Assembly: GCF_039596395.1 (NCBI RefSeq)
Contig: NZ_JBCNJT010000002.1
Span: 868,001-932,000 of the forward strand
From: Fluviicola sp.
GTDB taxonomy: Bacteria > Bacteroidota > Bacteroidia > Flavobacteriales_D > Crocinitomicaceae
DNA: 64,000 bases
Direction: 5' to 3'
Part shown: positions 10,123-61,967 of the stretch, in pieces
Numbering within the stretch: the first letter of the stretch is position 1
Layout of the letters: every line of letters begins with the position of its first letter
Program-made: the position numbers and the translations under genes
The notes under the pieces: model-generated
Told to the model about the DNA's origin: nothing
The model's database searches: none
The model's input: only the letters and a program-made list of their open reading frames with translations

Positions 10123-12510
10123 ATGAAATTTAAATACCTTTTAGTTGTTTCGGCGATTTGCCTTTTCAGCGAAAGTGCTTTGTCACAGACCAAAAATGTT
10201 CCACCGGGAAGCATGGGATATTCCTGGGGTTACGGAACCTCCAATATTTTAGGTGGAACAACGATCCCGATCTCAGCTGCACCTTACCAGGTTTCCATGG
10301 AAATAGGCGGAAGCCATGCCTGCGGAGGTTCTATTATTGCCGACCGCTGGATCCTTACCGCTGCACACTGCGTTGTATTAGGCGGAGCAACCACATCCAA
10401 TACGGTAATCCATGCAGGAAGCAACGACCAGACCAGCAGTGCCGGCCAGAATATTTCCGTAGATGCGATCTATACACACCCGAGCTACAATAGTTCCACA
10501 TCGGAAAATGATATCGCTTTGCTGCACCTTTCTTCGCCGTTGACATTCAATAACAATGTCATGCCGATTGAATACGCAAACAGTTGTAACACCAAACCGG
10601 CCGATTATACTGCAGGGAATCCTGTTTATTTATCCGGTTGGGGAATCACATGTAATAGCTGTGGTGTTGCAACTTTTTTACAGGGCTTATCGATTCCTTT
10701 TGTTTCGAATGCAACTGCAATGGCGATCAACGTAGCGTATAATTCTGCTTACACTGCAAACATTTCGTCGAATATGATTGCCTTCTACAATTCCGGAACA
10801 GGAGCAGGGCCGGGTGATAGTGGTGGGCCGGCAGTGATTGATAAAAATGGGAACAAAATTAACCTGGGTGCTTCAAGCTGGGGATATTGGCCGAAAGATC
10901 AATTGCCGACCGTTTACACCAACGTAAGAAATTACGCCAGCTGGATTCAAAGTATTACAGGATTTTCCATCAGTGATCCGGGATTGGATTTGTATTCCAA
11001 AGATAAACCCTGGGACATGGGGTTTGAGCCGAGCAATGTTACCAACCTCTGGGAAAGTGAAGACATCTGGGTACGCAGGCAAAATGACGGGATCGCGAAT
11101 CAGGTGCACCAGGATCCGGAATATTATACGCTTCCGGGAAATCACGATTACGTATATGTGAGAGTGAGAAACAGAGGATGTGTGGCATCTACCGGAACGG
11201 AACAGATAACTTTGAATTGGGCGAAGGCTGCAACAGCTTTATCATGGCCGGCCAACTGGAATGGCTCCATACTAACCAGCGGAGGTTTCCCGCTTGGAGG
11301 TGTGATCGGAACAGCGACTTTGCCGGTCATTCAGCCGGGAAATGCTGCTATTATTACATTCCAATGGGATCCGCCGAATCCTGCAAATTATGTTGGCGGT
11401 TTAACAACCGATCCATCCCTGTTTTGGGCAGAAGAGCCACATCACTTTTGTTTGTTGTCACGAATTGTTGCATCCGGAGATCCGATGACCGTTGCTGAAA
11501 CACCGAATCTGGGAAGCAATGTAAATAACAATAACAACATCGTCTGGAAAAACTTGTCTGTAGTAGATCTGAATCCTAGCAATATTTCACCGGGAGGAAC
11601 GATCCACACCGGTGCTACCGTGCTGGTCGGTGATGCCTGGAACCAGGGAGGAGTATACACGATTGAATTCGCAAATCCTACCTGGATTACCGGAAATCCG
11701 ATCACCCAAGAGGCGGAAATTAAGGTAAAGCTAGACGCACCTTTGTGGGCAAAATGGGCACAGGGCGGTTATCAAGCCGAAAATGTGGAAGTAGTGAATC
11801 CACAGGAGCATCTGGTACAGCTTTTTGGACATCATTCTGCGCTTAAAAATTTGCCGTTCCTGCCAAATGAACGAAATTTAATCAATGTCAGCTTCAATTT
11901 CCTGACCCAGCAAGCGACGAACCAAAATGAGTTTGATTTTTCTGTTATTCAGCGAACGAGTGCGGATAACCGGATTGTGGGTGGAGAAACCTATAAAATC
12001 TATAAGGAGCAGAAAAGAACCCTTTTCGTAGCTGATGCAGGTGGTGACAAAGAAATAGAACAGCTGAACAGCACTACGCTAAGCGCTTATCCGATCGGCG
12101 AGCAGGCTGTCTATAACTGGTACGATGAAAAAGGTAACCTGGTTTATACCGGTGAAGACTTTACAGTTTCTCCGGAAGTTACAACCAAGTATAAACTGGA
12201 GGTAATTGCTTCTCTTGATGGATTTAAGGATTATGACGAAGTGGAGGTAAAAGTCAAAGAATATGCAATTACCAACATCTCACCGAACCCGTCAAGCAGC
12301 ATCATCAATATCGATTACAGAGCACAAAAAGCACAATCGGCCTATGTGATGATCGTACCGTTGTTTGCAGGAACATCGAATCAGTATCTGTTAAACACGT
12401 CTGAAACTTCCAAAAGAATTGATGTTTCAAACTACGTGCCGGGCCAATATGCCGTGGTCTTGATTTGCGATGGCAATGTTGTTGACTACAAAAATATTTT
12501 AGTACAATAA
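10123..12510 (+). CDS. secreted S1-family (chymotrypsin fold) serine peptidase with T9SS sorting domain
   Basis: 795-residue extracellular protease. Signal peptide ends near ALSQT (about 22). The protease domain starts with an activation-type site ILGGTT (42-47), then TAAHC (His82), ENDIALLHL (Asp130) and GPGDSGGPAV (Ser233). The Cys67-Cys83 pair around the active His is kept. The residue six before the active Ser, Asp in true trypsin, is Gly here, and the usual Cys191 is Gly, so trypsin-like Arg/Lys specificity is unlikely. A long beta-rich region (about 290-620), an Ig-like segment (about 640-700) and a T9SS type A domain (ITNISPNPSSS to the end) follow. A stem-loop closes the gene. Confidence 0.93.
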   Translation: MKFKYLLVVSAICLFSESALSQTKNVPPGSMGYSWGYGTSNILGGTTIPISAAPYQVSMEIGGSHACGGSIIADRWILTAAHCVVLGGATTSNTVIHAGSNDQTSSAGQNISVDAIYTHPSYNSSTSENDIALLHLSSPLTFNNNVMPIEYANSCNTKPADYTAGNPVYLSGWGITCNSCGVATFLQGLSIPFVSNATAMAINVAYNSAYTANISSNMIAFYNSGTGAGPGDSGGPAVIDKNGNKINLGASSWGYWPKDQLPTVYTNVRNYASWIQSITGFSISDPGLDLYSKDKPWDMGFEPSNVTNLWESEDIWVRRQNDGIANQVHQDPEYYTLPGNHDYVYVRVRNRGCVASTGTEQITLNWAKAATALSWPANWNGSILTSGGFPLGGVIGTATLPVIQPGNAAIITFQWDPPNPANYVGGLTTDPSLFWAEEPHHFCLLSRIVASGDPMTVAETPNLGSNVNNNNNIVWKNLSVVDLNPSNISPGGTIHTGATVLVGDAWNQGGVYTIEFANPTWITGNPITQEAEIKVKLDAPLWAKWAQGGYQAENVEVVNPQEHLVQLFGHHSALKNLPFLPNERNLINVSFNFLTQQATNQNEFDFSVIQRTSADNRIVGGETYKIYKEQKRTLFVADAGGDKEIEQLNSTTLSAYPIGEQAVYNWYDEKGNLVYTGEDFTVSPEVTTKYKLEVIASLDGFKDYDEVEVKVKEYAITNISPNPSSSIINIDYRAQKAQSAYVMIVPLFAGTSNQYLLNTSETSKRIDVSNYVPGQYAVVLICDGNVVDYKNILVQ

Positions 12511-47909: not shown

Positions 47910-48470
47910 CTGTTCTAAATATTTAGTAGACGCCTAACTTTCGTTCGTCTATTCGAATATAAACTTTAACTATGAATTGTGCAAATTAGTCTTCAAGGAG
48001 GAGAAACAAAATAAATAGAATAAAAATCTTTTTTAAAAAGAAATCTATTATATCTATTAGGGGTGTTAATTCGTGTAAAACTTTCATCCGAAAGATTCGT
48101 TTTTTAAACTTATGAGTTCATTCGATGGATTTATTGACAATTGAAAACGTCGATTTGAAGTTCTGTGACAATACTTTACGCAGATATCAACAATTGAGGC
48201 GGAATTGTTAATGTGTATAAAATACTTCCTTTCAACGCTGTTAATATGTGTTTAACATGGGGATAAAAGAGCGATAATTTCACCAAACTTTTGGGTGCTT
48301 CATTCAAAAACTTGTACATATGATGAAATAGTTCGGATATCCTAGAAATAGTTATTGAATCTTTCCAACAGATATTGACAATCCGGAATTAAAAGGTGTG
48401 TAAAACTGTTTTTTGTACTATCAAGGAAATCAAGCCTTTCAGCGAATGCATTTTTTCTTGTTGTTAATTG

Positions 48471-59494: not shown

Positions 59495-59934
59495 TGGTAG
59501 AAGTTTTTTTTGAAGATATAGATGAAGTTCCGGGTGTAAACCCGGAATTTTTGTTTGCATGGTATACGAATGTTTGTAATGTGGAGTCCAAAACCCTGGG
59601 AGAGATTTCCATTATTTTTTGTTCGGATGAACATTTGCTGGATATGAATAAGGAATACCTGGACCACGATTATTACACAGATATTATCACGTTCGATTAT
59701 ACACAAGACAATCTCGTTTCAGGAGATTTGTTTATTAGTGTAGATCGTGTTCAGGATAATGCAGATGAATTTGATGTGTTATTCCAGGATGAATTACACC
59801 GGGTTTGTGTTCATGGTCTGTTACACTTGTGCGGTTACAAGGATAAATCAGAAAGTGATGAGAGGTTAATGCGCTCTAAGGAGAATGAAATGTTGGAGTT
59901 GCGAAAGTTCCACGTGGAACATTTGAAGGGTTGA
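59494..59934 (+). CDS. ybeY: endoribonuclease YbeY (16S rRNA maturation)
   Basis: 146-residue zinc-dependent RNase of rRNA processing and ribosome quality control. The signature helix is DELHRVCVHGLLHLCGYKDKSESDE: the first two zinc His are present (HGLLH), while the third His of the usual H-x3-H-x5-H motif is Asp. The substrate-binding Arg region and ISIIFCSDEHLLDMNKEYL with DHDYYTDIITFDY are also typical. The last codons (KFHVEHLKG) are encoded by a parS sequence, so the C-terminal FHVEH follows from the DNA site. Confidence 0.93.
   Translation: MVEVFFEDIDEVPGVNPEFLFAWYTNVCNVESKTLGEISIIFCSDEHLLDMNKEYLDHDYYTDIITFDYTQDNLVSGDLFISVDRVQDNADEFDVLFQDELHRVCVHGLLHLCGYKDKSESDERLMRSKENEMLELRKFHVEHLKG
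59906..59921. promoter_or_regulatory. parS: parS site 1, inside the 3' end of ybeY
   Basis: AGTTCCACGTGGAACA: 15 of 16 bases match TGTTCCACGTGGAACA. It encodes Phe-His-Val-Glu-His in ybeY. ParB-family proteins bind such sites to nucleate the partition complex. Confidence 0.85.
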
Positions 59935-59941
59935 TTTTGTT

Positions 59942-59957
59942 TGTTCCACGTGGAACA
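59942..59957. promoter_or_regulatory. parS: parS site 2, ybeY-mnmG intergenic
   Basis: TGTTCCACGTGGAACA, a perfect 16-bp palindrome and the best site of the cluster, 20 bp after site 1. Confidence 0.9.
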
Positions 59958-60009
59958 CATTTTTTGATTTTCGAGTTTTTGTAAAAAGGCCAAATGTTAA
60001 TGTTGCGTA

Positions 60010-60025
60010 AGTTTCACGTGGAACA
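60010..60025. promoter_or_regulatory. parS: parS site 3, ybeY-mnmG intergenic
   Basis: AGTTTCACGTGGAACA, the mixed TTTCACGTGGAA form that also occurs in functional parS sites. Confidence 0.85.
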
Positions 60026-60056
60026 TTGGAAAGCTTGGCAGGAATGATAGTAATTT

Positions 60057-60072
60057 TGTTCCACGTGAAACG
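60057..60072. promoter_or_regulatory. parS: parS site 4, just before the mnmG start
   Basis: TGTTCCACGTGAAACG: 15 of 16 bases match the Bacillus-type TGTTCCACGTGAAACA. It ends 9 bp before the mnmG ATG, so ParB binding could affect mnmG expression. Confidence 0.85.
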
Positions 60073-60081
60073 TGAGAGAAT

Positions 60082-61953
60082 ATGTTGAAGAATTATGATG
60101 TCATTGTAGTGGGTGGCGGACATGCTGGTTGTGAGGCTGCGAATGCGGCGGCAAAACTGGGAAGTTCGGTGTTGTTGATTACAATGAATATGAATACCAT
60201 TGCTCAGATGAGTTGCAACCCTGCAATGGGTGGTGTGGCGAAAGGGCAAATCGTTCGTGAAATTGATGCGCTTGGCGGAGGGTCCGGTATTGTTTCGGAT
60301 TTGTCGGCAATTCAGTTTCGTATGTTGAACCGTTCAAAAGGTCCGGCGATGTGGTCGCCGAGAACTCAAAACGATCGAATGAAGTTTGCTGAGGAGTGGC
60401 GTTTGTTGCTCGAACGAAATCCAAATGTTGATTTTTGGCAGGACATGTGCAATGGATTGATCGTGGAGAACGGTTCTGTTGTGGGTGTTCGCACTTCAAT
60501 GGGTATTCCGGTTTATGGAAAGGCGGTTGTTTTGACAAACGGAACTTTCCTGAATGGATTGATCCATTTGGGTGAAAAACAGTTTGGCGGTGGAAGAATC
60601 GGTGAGAAAGGTGCAACCGGAATCACGGAGGATTTGGTCGCTTTAGGATTTGAATCCGGAAGAATGAAAACAGGAACACCTCCACGTATCGATGGCCGTT
60701 CACTGGATTATTCCAAAATGGAATTGCAGGATGGAGATGAAAATCCCAGCAAGTTTTCTTACGGAAATACAGAGGCGTTGAAAGTACAACGTGCTTGTCA
60801 CATTACTTACACCTCTACTCTCACCCACGATTTATTGCGCGAAGGGTTTGATCGTTCACCAATGTTCAATGGTGCAATTAAAAGTAGCGGGCCAAGATAT
60901 TGCCCGAGTATTGAGGATAAGATCAATCGTTTTGCTGATCGCGACAGACACCAGATTTTTGTGGAGCCGGAAGGATGGAATACGGTGGAAATCTATGTAA
61001 ACGGGTTTTCTACCAGTTTACCTGAAGATGTTCAATTGAAAGCGTTGAGATCTATTCCCGGATTTGAGCAAGCTAAAATGTTCCGACCAGGATATGCGAT
61101 CGAGTACGATTACTTCCCCCCTACTCAACTAAAACACACGTTGGAAACAAAGTTGATAGATGGATTGTATTTCGCTGGACAGATCAATGGTACTACCGGA
61201 TATGAAGAAGCAGCTTGCCAGGGATTGATGGCTGGAATCAATGCTGCTTTGAAAGTACAGGAAAAGGAACCGTTTATACTTTCACGAAGTGAAGCGTATA
61301 TCGGTGTGTTGATCGATGATTTGATCACGAAAGGAACTCAGGAACCTTACCGCATGTTTACTTCCCGTGCAGAATATCGAATCTTGTTACGTCAGGACAA
61401 TGCGGATGTTCGTTTGACACCGATTGCTTTTGAACTGGGTTTACAGGATCAGGAAGCGATGGATCGGGTGAATAGAAAGATTAGTGCAGCAAAAGAGTTG
61501 ATAGGTGCTTTGCGTAAAGAAGGAGTTAGTCCGGAAGTTGCAAATCCGGTCTTGGATTTGGTTGGTAGTTCTCCCCTTTCCCAGCAGGTGAAATTAGCAT
61601 CGGTTCTTACACGACCACATGTAACTATGGAACACGTGTTGGAAATGAGCCAGAATGTTCGTGAGTTGGCTGAAAAGTTACACGTGGAACATGAGGATGC
61701 TGTTGAGCAAGCTGAAATTCTTTTAAAGTACGAAGGATATATAGCTCGCGAGGAAGAAGTCGCATTGAAACTGTCTCGTTTGGAAGAGGTCTCGATTCCT
61801 GATTCAATGGATTATTTTTCAATGAAATCCTTGTCTTCGGAGGCAAAAGAAAAGCTAAGCAAAATTAAGCCGGTGACTATTGGTCAGGCATCCAGAGTTA
61901 GTGGAGTTTCCCCTAGCGATATTTCTGTTTTATTAATTCATTTAGGAAGATAG
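60082..61953 (+). CDS. mnmG: tRNA uridine 5-carboxymethylaminomethyl modification enzyme MnmG (GidA)
   Basis: FAD-dependent partner of MnmE in making cmnm5U at the wobble position of certain tRNAs. The 623 residues show the FAD loop [21 protein letters not shown] at 8-28, [26 protein letters not shown], the Cys region [54 protein letters not shown] and [20 protein letters not shown]. The C-terminal helical MnmE-binding domain holds an LHVEHED segment encoded over parS site 5. mnmG lies beside the origin in many bacteria, which fits the parS cluster around it. Confidence 0.97.
61676..61691. promoter_or_regulatory. parS: parS-like site 5, inside the 3' part of mnmG
   Basis: AGTTACACGTGGAACA: one more departure from consensus than the others (A in place of C/T at position 5). 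It encodes Leu-His-Val-Glu-His in MnmG. Confidence 0.7.
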
Positions 61954-61967
61954 TTTCACGTGGAACA
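61952..61967. promoter_or_regulatory. parS: parS site 6, between mnmG stop and methyltransferase start
   Basis: AGTTTCACGTGGAACA. It overlaps the mnmG TAG stop and contains the GTG start codon of the methyltransferase gene. Confidence 0.85.

Follow-up and report, generated by a model that had tools for sequence, protein, structure and literature searches.

The question raised by this locus is what a crowd of similar 16-bp palindromes around ybeY and mnmG is for, and in particular whether they form a chromosome centromere. In the chromosomal ParABS systems of Bacillus, Caulobacter and Pseudomonas, 16-bp parS sites are clustered near the origin and work with a parAB pair. We analysed a stretch of 64 kb, hereafter the window (C2:868001-932000), from a Fluviicola-like genome of 4.64 Mb in five contigs. 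A mismatch scan of the window against TGTTYCACGTGRAACA identified six parS sites at 59906-61967 (Table 1), reproducing exactly the six-site cluster within 2.1 kb described in an earlier note on this DNA. The single perfect site given in that note was confirmed, while the up to three changes that it ascribed to the others were not, the six sites carrying 0 to 2 changes against the R/Y consensus. The window contains 18 CACGTG hexamers, and the parS flanks are present on six of them only, all in the cluster; a seventh match at 10245 has three mismatches and no CACGTG core, in agreement with the claim that no comparable site exists in the rest of the window. None of 100 shuffled windows held seven matches at three or fewer mismatches (mean: 1.48; largest: 6).

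Table 1. Features of the locus in window coordinates, with mismatches counted against TGTTYCACGTGRAACA
Feature	Start	End	Strand	Remarks
Candidate oriC	47859	48519	.	Intergenic, LytTR response regulator gene to rpiB; skew minimum 47970, AT-rich stretch at 47959
DnaA-box-like TTATACACA	48212	48220	-	TTATCCACA at the same place in genus-mate L181
DnaA-box-like TTTTACACA	48397	48405	-	Identical in genus-mate L181
rpiB	48520	48954	+	PF02502; landmark of the origin side
ybeY	59494	59934	+	Endoribonuclease YbeY, PF02130
ybeY tail with parS 1	59888	59933	+	46 bases; second copy at 59992-60037, 83% identical, spacing 104
parS 1	59906	59921	+	AGTTCCACGTGGAACA, 1 mismatch; within the 3' end of ybeY
parS 2	59942	59957	+	TGTTCCACGTGGAACA, 0 mismatches (perfect); directly 3' of ybeY
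parS 3	60010	60025	+	1 mismatch; in the duplicate of the ybeY tail
Sigma-A -7 box match TAATTTTG	60051	60058	+	Bacteroidetes TAnnTTTG; overlaps the start of parS 4 by its final two bases
parS 4	60057	60072	+	TGTTCCACGTGAAACG, 1 mismatch; ends 9 bases upstream of the mnmG start codon
mnmG (gidA)	60082	61953	+	TIGR00136, PF01134
parS 5	61676	61691	+	2 mismatches; within the mnmG coding sequence
parS 6	61952	61967	+	1 mismatch; overlaps the mnmG stop codon and a GTG (61960) at which the next gene may start

The scan was extended to the whole genome, as the earlier note had proposed, and the sites proved clustered and not evenly spread: every site with no or one mismatch (5/5) lies in the cluster, at C2:927906-929967, which is 2.1 kb of 4.64 Mb. 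A first-order Markov model of the whole 4.64 Mb predicted 0.01 perfect and 0.41 one-mismatch sites, or 0.42 at one mismatch or fewer. Two mismatches were found at 13 places beyond the five, and the CACGTG core was kept in four of these: C2:929676 (inside the cluster), C2:935206, C2:944102 and C2:492059. As about 2.0 core-bearing two-mismatch sites are expected genome-wide, the last three may be chance matches. C2:935206 and C2:944102 lie about 5 and 14 kb past the cluster, each within a long open reading frame.

The 46-base repeat of the ybeY tail was not found in the relative L064, where ybeY ends in a single copy, and a parS site therefore seems to have been added by duplication in the window's lineage. 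The site within mnmG (parS 5) is also present in the relatives L063, L064 and L065. By eye, the duplicated tail leaves a 15-codon reading frame containing FHVEH, the peptide that parS encodes in that frame. At the other end of the cluster, the methyltransferase gene 3' of mnmG may start at the GTG within parS 6, in which case its first residues would be centromere-encoded.

We then compared mnmG loci within the family, scanning the best 80 of at least 592 relatives; among the matches listed, the closest named mnmG relatives belong to Fluviicola or the Crocinitomicaceae. In every one of these loci (80/80) the 100 bases upstream of mnmG include a site, and of the 189 sites that the loci contain, 186 fall between -400 and +2300 of the mnmG start. 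In an even draw of 99 Bacteroidota genomes, a perfect parS was present in 72 and a reversed control pattern in 1. Among the matches listed (75 perfect sites from 45 of the 72 positive genomes), 72 sites lie within 5 kb of mnmG, with 39/75 at most 150 bases before the matched part of the gene and 23/75 at most 150 bases after it. The 99 mnmG neighbourhoods (30 + 69 loci, clipped by a contig end in 1/30 and 3/69) were also scanned for sites with the CACGTG core and at most two mismatches. Such a site occurs within 1.5 kb of mnmG in 92/99 genomes (at most one mismatch: 84; perfect: 65), compared with 0.1/99 genomes at two or fewer mismatches in 20 mononucleotide shuffles per genome. No such site was found within 1.5 kb of mnmG in seven genomes (G013, G034, G037, G064, G077, G082 and G091). 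The perfect site listed for each of G064, G072 and G025 is away from mnmG; at the gene itself, G072 and G025 additionally carry imperfect sites. These results show a phylum-wide position of parS at mnmG. Ancestrally, the gene order is mnmG-rsmG-parA-parB, and the position is likely inherited from this neighbourhood of mnmG and parAB. Searching the open-licence literature by title and the start of the abstract, we found nothing on parS at mnmG in Bacteroidota or on a parS-promoter fusion.

The same palindromes, perfect or near-perfect and placed near both the start and the stop of mnmG, might act as RNA or DNA hairpins, forming an attenuator or terminator at the gene. However, the CACGTG core and its flanks match parS throughout the phylum, where the stems of a hairpin could vary, and one of the sites sits mid-gene, making this explanation exceedingly improbable.

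To place the cluster relative to the replication origin, GC skew was sampled in 20-kb stretches of C2. The skew was negative throughout the first 0.86 Mb (12/12 stretches) and positive in 12/13 stretches from 0.91 Mb, and the cumulative minimum over 142 kb fell at window position 47970, 12 kb left of the parS cluster. The earlier note had placed the origin near the cluster, close to the right end of the window. Nearness to the cluster is supported by the sign change at the locus and by this local minimum; the minimum falls inside the window and left of the cluster, ruling out an origin past the right end. The region upstream of rpiB combines the skew minimum, one of the most AT-rich stretches and two DnaA-box-like sequences, with no more than two boxes matching TTWTNCACA; it is 72% identical between the window and L181, with several conserved blocks. 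We take this region, within the window and upstream of rpiB, as the likely oriC.

Within the family, rpiB and mnmG are on one contig, 5-28 kb apart, in 21/28 genomes including the window's own, and on separate contigs in 7/28. At least one TTWTNCACA was present within 700 bases upstream of rpiB in 16/28 family loci and none in 12/28, including the single-contig relative G102, in which a 40-kb local skew minimum lies 1.1 kb from rpiB and genome-wide skew is noisy. Of three further genomes, G005 showed a clear skew sign change at mnmG, G057 one displaced to the left (-190 to -16 kb) and G095 an unclear one. A search for dnaA, also proposed earlier, located the gene at C1:924481, away from the skew-defined origin. 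In a set of 12 gut species including two Bacteroidetes, parS sites are described as mostly clustered and were used with GC skew for origin placement, the origin not necessarily being at dnaA (PMC10197239).

The ParABS system predicted in the earlier note was then found in the genome. A single TIGR00180 match (2.8e-52) identified parB at C1:1409680, encoding the ParB_N, HTH_ParB and ParB_C domains and immediately preceded by parA (AAA_31), which was identified as the neighbour of parB. The protein contains GERRFRA and ENIQRE, which we take to be the CTP motifs of ParB. In an alignment numbered via the Noc row, its residues at Caulobacter positions 173/179/184/201 read R, H, K and G. According to PMC7383237, RXXG marks the parS-specific class of ParB; R173 and G201 contact parS and are conserved throughout extant ParB, positions 179 and 184 are variable, and K or R occupies position 184 in about 28% of ParB. 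ParB was detected in 99/99 of the sampled Bacteroidota genomes. The features of chromosomal parS found here are thus the palindrome match, clustering, origin proximity, and the presence of ParA and of ParB with parS-type residues.

The parAB pair lies far from the sites. On C1, every stretch sampled below 1.36 Mb had positive GC skew and 7/7 sampled from 1.5 Mb on had negative skew, with mixed signs between 1.36 and 1.44 Mb, suggesting, since the skew turns over around there, that the terminus is near parAB (C1:1.41 Mb). The skew of the other contigs was positive in 5/6 stretches of C3 and negative in 4/5 of C4 and 2/2 of C5; with contigs put in arms by skew sign, the distance between parB and the origin would be about 2.15 Mb in one direction and 2.48 Mb in the opposite one. 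The distance between parB and mnmG ranged from 301 to 2264 kb in 15/15 single-contig genomes of the phylum sample, corresponding to 0.15 to 0.96 of half the genome (rounded sizes).

One site of the cluster overlaps a predicted promoter element. The flavobacterial sigma-A box is TAnnTTTG at -12 to -5 (PMC9723704), and with this placement the box match at parS 4 predicts that mnmG transcription begins near 60063, midway through parS 4. Because box and site share two bases, ParB and RNA polymerase would be expected to compete there, and in Pseudomonas aeruginosa ParB near parS can repress a promoter (PMC7022226). Of the features of a ParB-controlled promoter, the overlap of box and parS was found, the promoter being a consensus match. 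Among 79 related loci (L070, with 49 bases upstream, was dropped from the best 80), TAnnTT precedes the mnmG-proximal parS in 40, starting at exactly -6 in all 40 cases compared with four or fewer at any other offset; it was found at 2/78 sites farther upstream. A -33 TTG at fixed spacing was weak (5/40 at spacer 20 vs 15 at spacer 0). In the fused loci the 40 bases upstream average 33% pairwise identity, and the fused state required 11 changes on a quick mnmG tree compared with 26.9 for shuffled labels. As judged from these sequences, the fusion is clustered by descent, yet appears to be kept as the flanks diverge. The overlap of promoter and parS characterises this group of relatives, and its extension to the whole phylum was ruled out, with 1/16 genomes in the class (the window's own) and 1/39 outside it, counts that omit the 8/24 in-class and 36/75 outside genomes in which the 100 bases before the matched part of mnmG contain no site.

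The exact offset of the box in 40/79 related loci, together with a site close upstream of mnmG in every one of the 80, would suit sites that are mainly operators, through which ParB or another factor controls mnmG, ybeY and their neighbours with no centromere role. Nevertheless, sites also lie inside coding sequence and across the mnmG stop codon, their sequence is that of the universal parS, every sampled genome encodes ParB, and the overlap is confined as described above. We consider a purely regulatory role improbable.

We also searched for the condensin-related families Smc (TIGR02168), ScpB and DUF4194. In the window's genome, Smc was not found (best match about 25 bits vs a cut-off of 567) and ScpB gave no match; the two encoded components by which Smc-ScpAB loading would be recognised were thus both missing from the matches. 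Across the phylum sample at E 1e-40, Smc was detected in 85/99 genomes (82 over the cut-off) and ScpB likewise in 85/99, and the negative sets were identical, comprising 14/99 genomes (the window's own, G000, with G012, G021, G025, G029, G041, G045, G053, G057, G068, G072, G084, G088 and G095). At the same threshold, Smc was matched in 11/14 and ScpB in 9/14 named control genomes, the control Bacteroides ihuae being negative for both. DUF4194, which we take to be the MksE-type family, matched 10/99 phylum genomes and, among the controls, only Corynebacterium glutamicum. MksBEF in place of Smc was ruled out as far as DUF4194 shows (0/14 Smc-negative genomes), and a condensin unlike the Smc, ScpB and DUF4194 models could be encoded in the 14 genomes. 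All 14 (14/14) keep ParB, and each has a parS close to mnmG (perfect in 10, with one mismatch in 2 and with two mismatches in 2). As no Smc or ScpB was found, the ParB-parS complex probably works without Smc loading in this lineage. Two gut Bacteroidetes are reported in PMC10197239 to have no known condensin, one of them nonetheless showing a secondary diagonal; condensin absence is therefore already in print for other Bacteroidetes.

With parAB located elsewhere and neither Smc nor ScpB detected, the sites could conceivably be non-working parS left from the former mnmG-rsmG-parA-parB neighbourhood, segregation being driven otherwise. This is argued against by the near-perfect state of the sites despite diverging flanks (33% identity in the 40 bases upstream of fused sites), by the extra parS copy gained through duplication and by the parS-type residues retained in ParB, and we regard such relict sites as highly improbable, more so than operators.

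Taken together, the results suggest that the cluster, some 12 kb from the likely oriC, is a chromosome centromere; we assign this reading a probability of roughly 0.9. Counting against it are the remote position of parAB, the seven genomes with no site close to mnmG, the perfect sites located elsewhere in G064, G072 and G025, and the shifted or unclear skew switch of G057 and G095. ParB from C1 would bind the six sites, load on DNA as a CTP clamp and then spread, and the resulting complex would be pulled apart by ParA after the origin is copied. In the Smc/ScpB-negative lineage this complex probably acts without loading the Smc condensin. With less certainty, ParB on parS 4 probably also covers and restrains the mnmG promoter. 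We further propose, as a speculative extension that we think doubtful, that a centromere operating with none of the known bacterial condensins also serves as an operator: bound at the fused parS, ParB would silence mnmG until fork passage strips it off and briefly opens the gene. If true, the expression of an origin-proximal tRNA-modification gene would be tied to origin firing and ParB loading.

With the centromere reading, a Fluviicola-like lineage whose dnaA does not mark the origin would gain a named centromere and a candidate origin. Natural ParABS chromosomes lacking Smc and ScpB would also become available, in which the part that ParB plays in segregation can be told apart from condensin loading. 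What aligns the chromosome arms in Bacteroidetes lacking known condensins is a question left by PMC10197239, and the 14/99 negative genomes are lineages in which to study it. The overlap of parS and promoter also allows local repression by ParB to be tested directly.

Compared with known systems, the centromere itself is of a known kind, and what is unusual is that Smc and ScpB are missing together, that parAB is distant and that one site is promoter-fused. With the ParABS systems of Bacillus, Caulobacter and Pseudomonas it shares the 16-bp parS, the cluster near the origin, the parAB pair, the N, HTH and C domains of ParB and the RXXG residues; unlike in those systems, parAB lies near the predicted terminus and away from parS, no Smc or ScpB was found, the sites flank mnmG and one overlaps a promoter box. 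As in the gut species of PMC10197239, the cluster marks an origin that is not tied to dnaA, and as in the two gut Bacteroidetes of that study no known condensin was found; those species were studied by Hi-C, whereas the Fluviicola-like genome was analysed here by sequence. Relative to that report, the combined lack of Smc and ScpB in 14/99 genomes and the promoter overlap are additional. In Pseudomonas aeruginosa, ParB at parS can lower a nearby promoter (PMC7022226 and the title of a 2017 paper that it cites), and we propose a likeness to parS 4; in contrast to the P. aeruginosa case as described in PMC7022226, box and parS here share bases, an arrangement seen again in roughly half the related loci.
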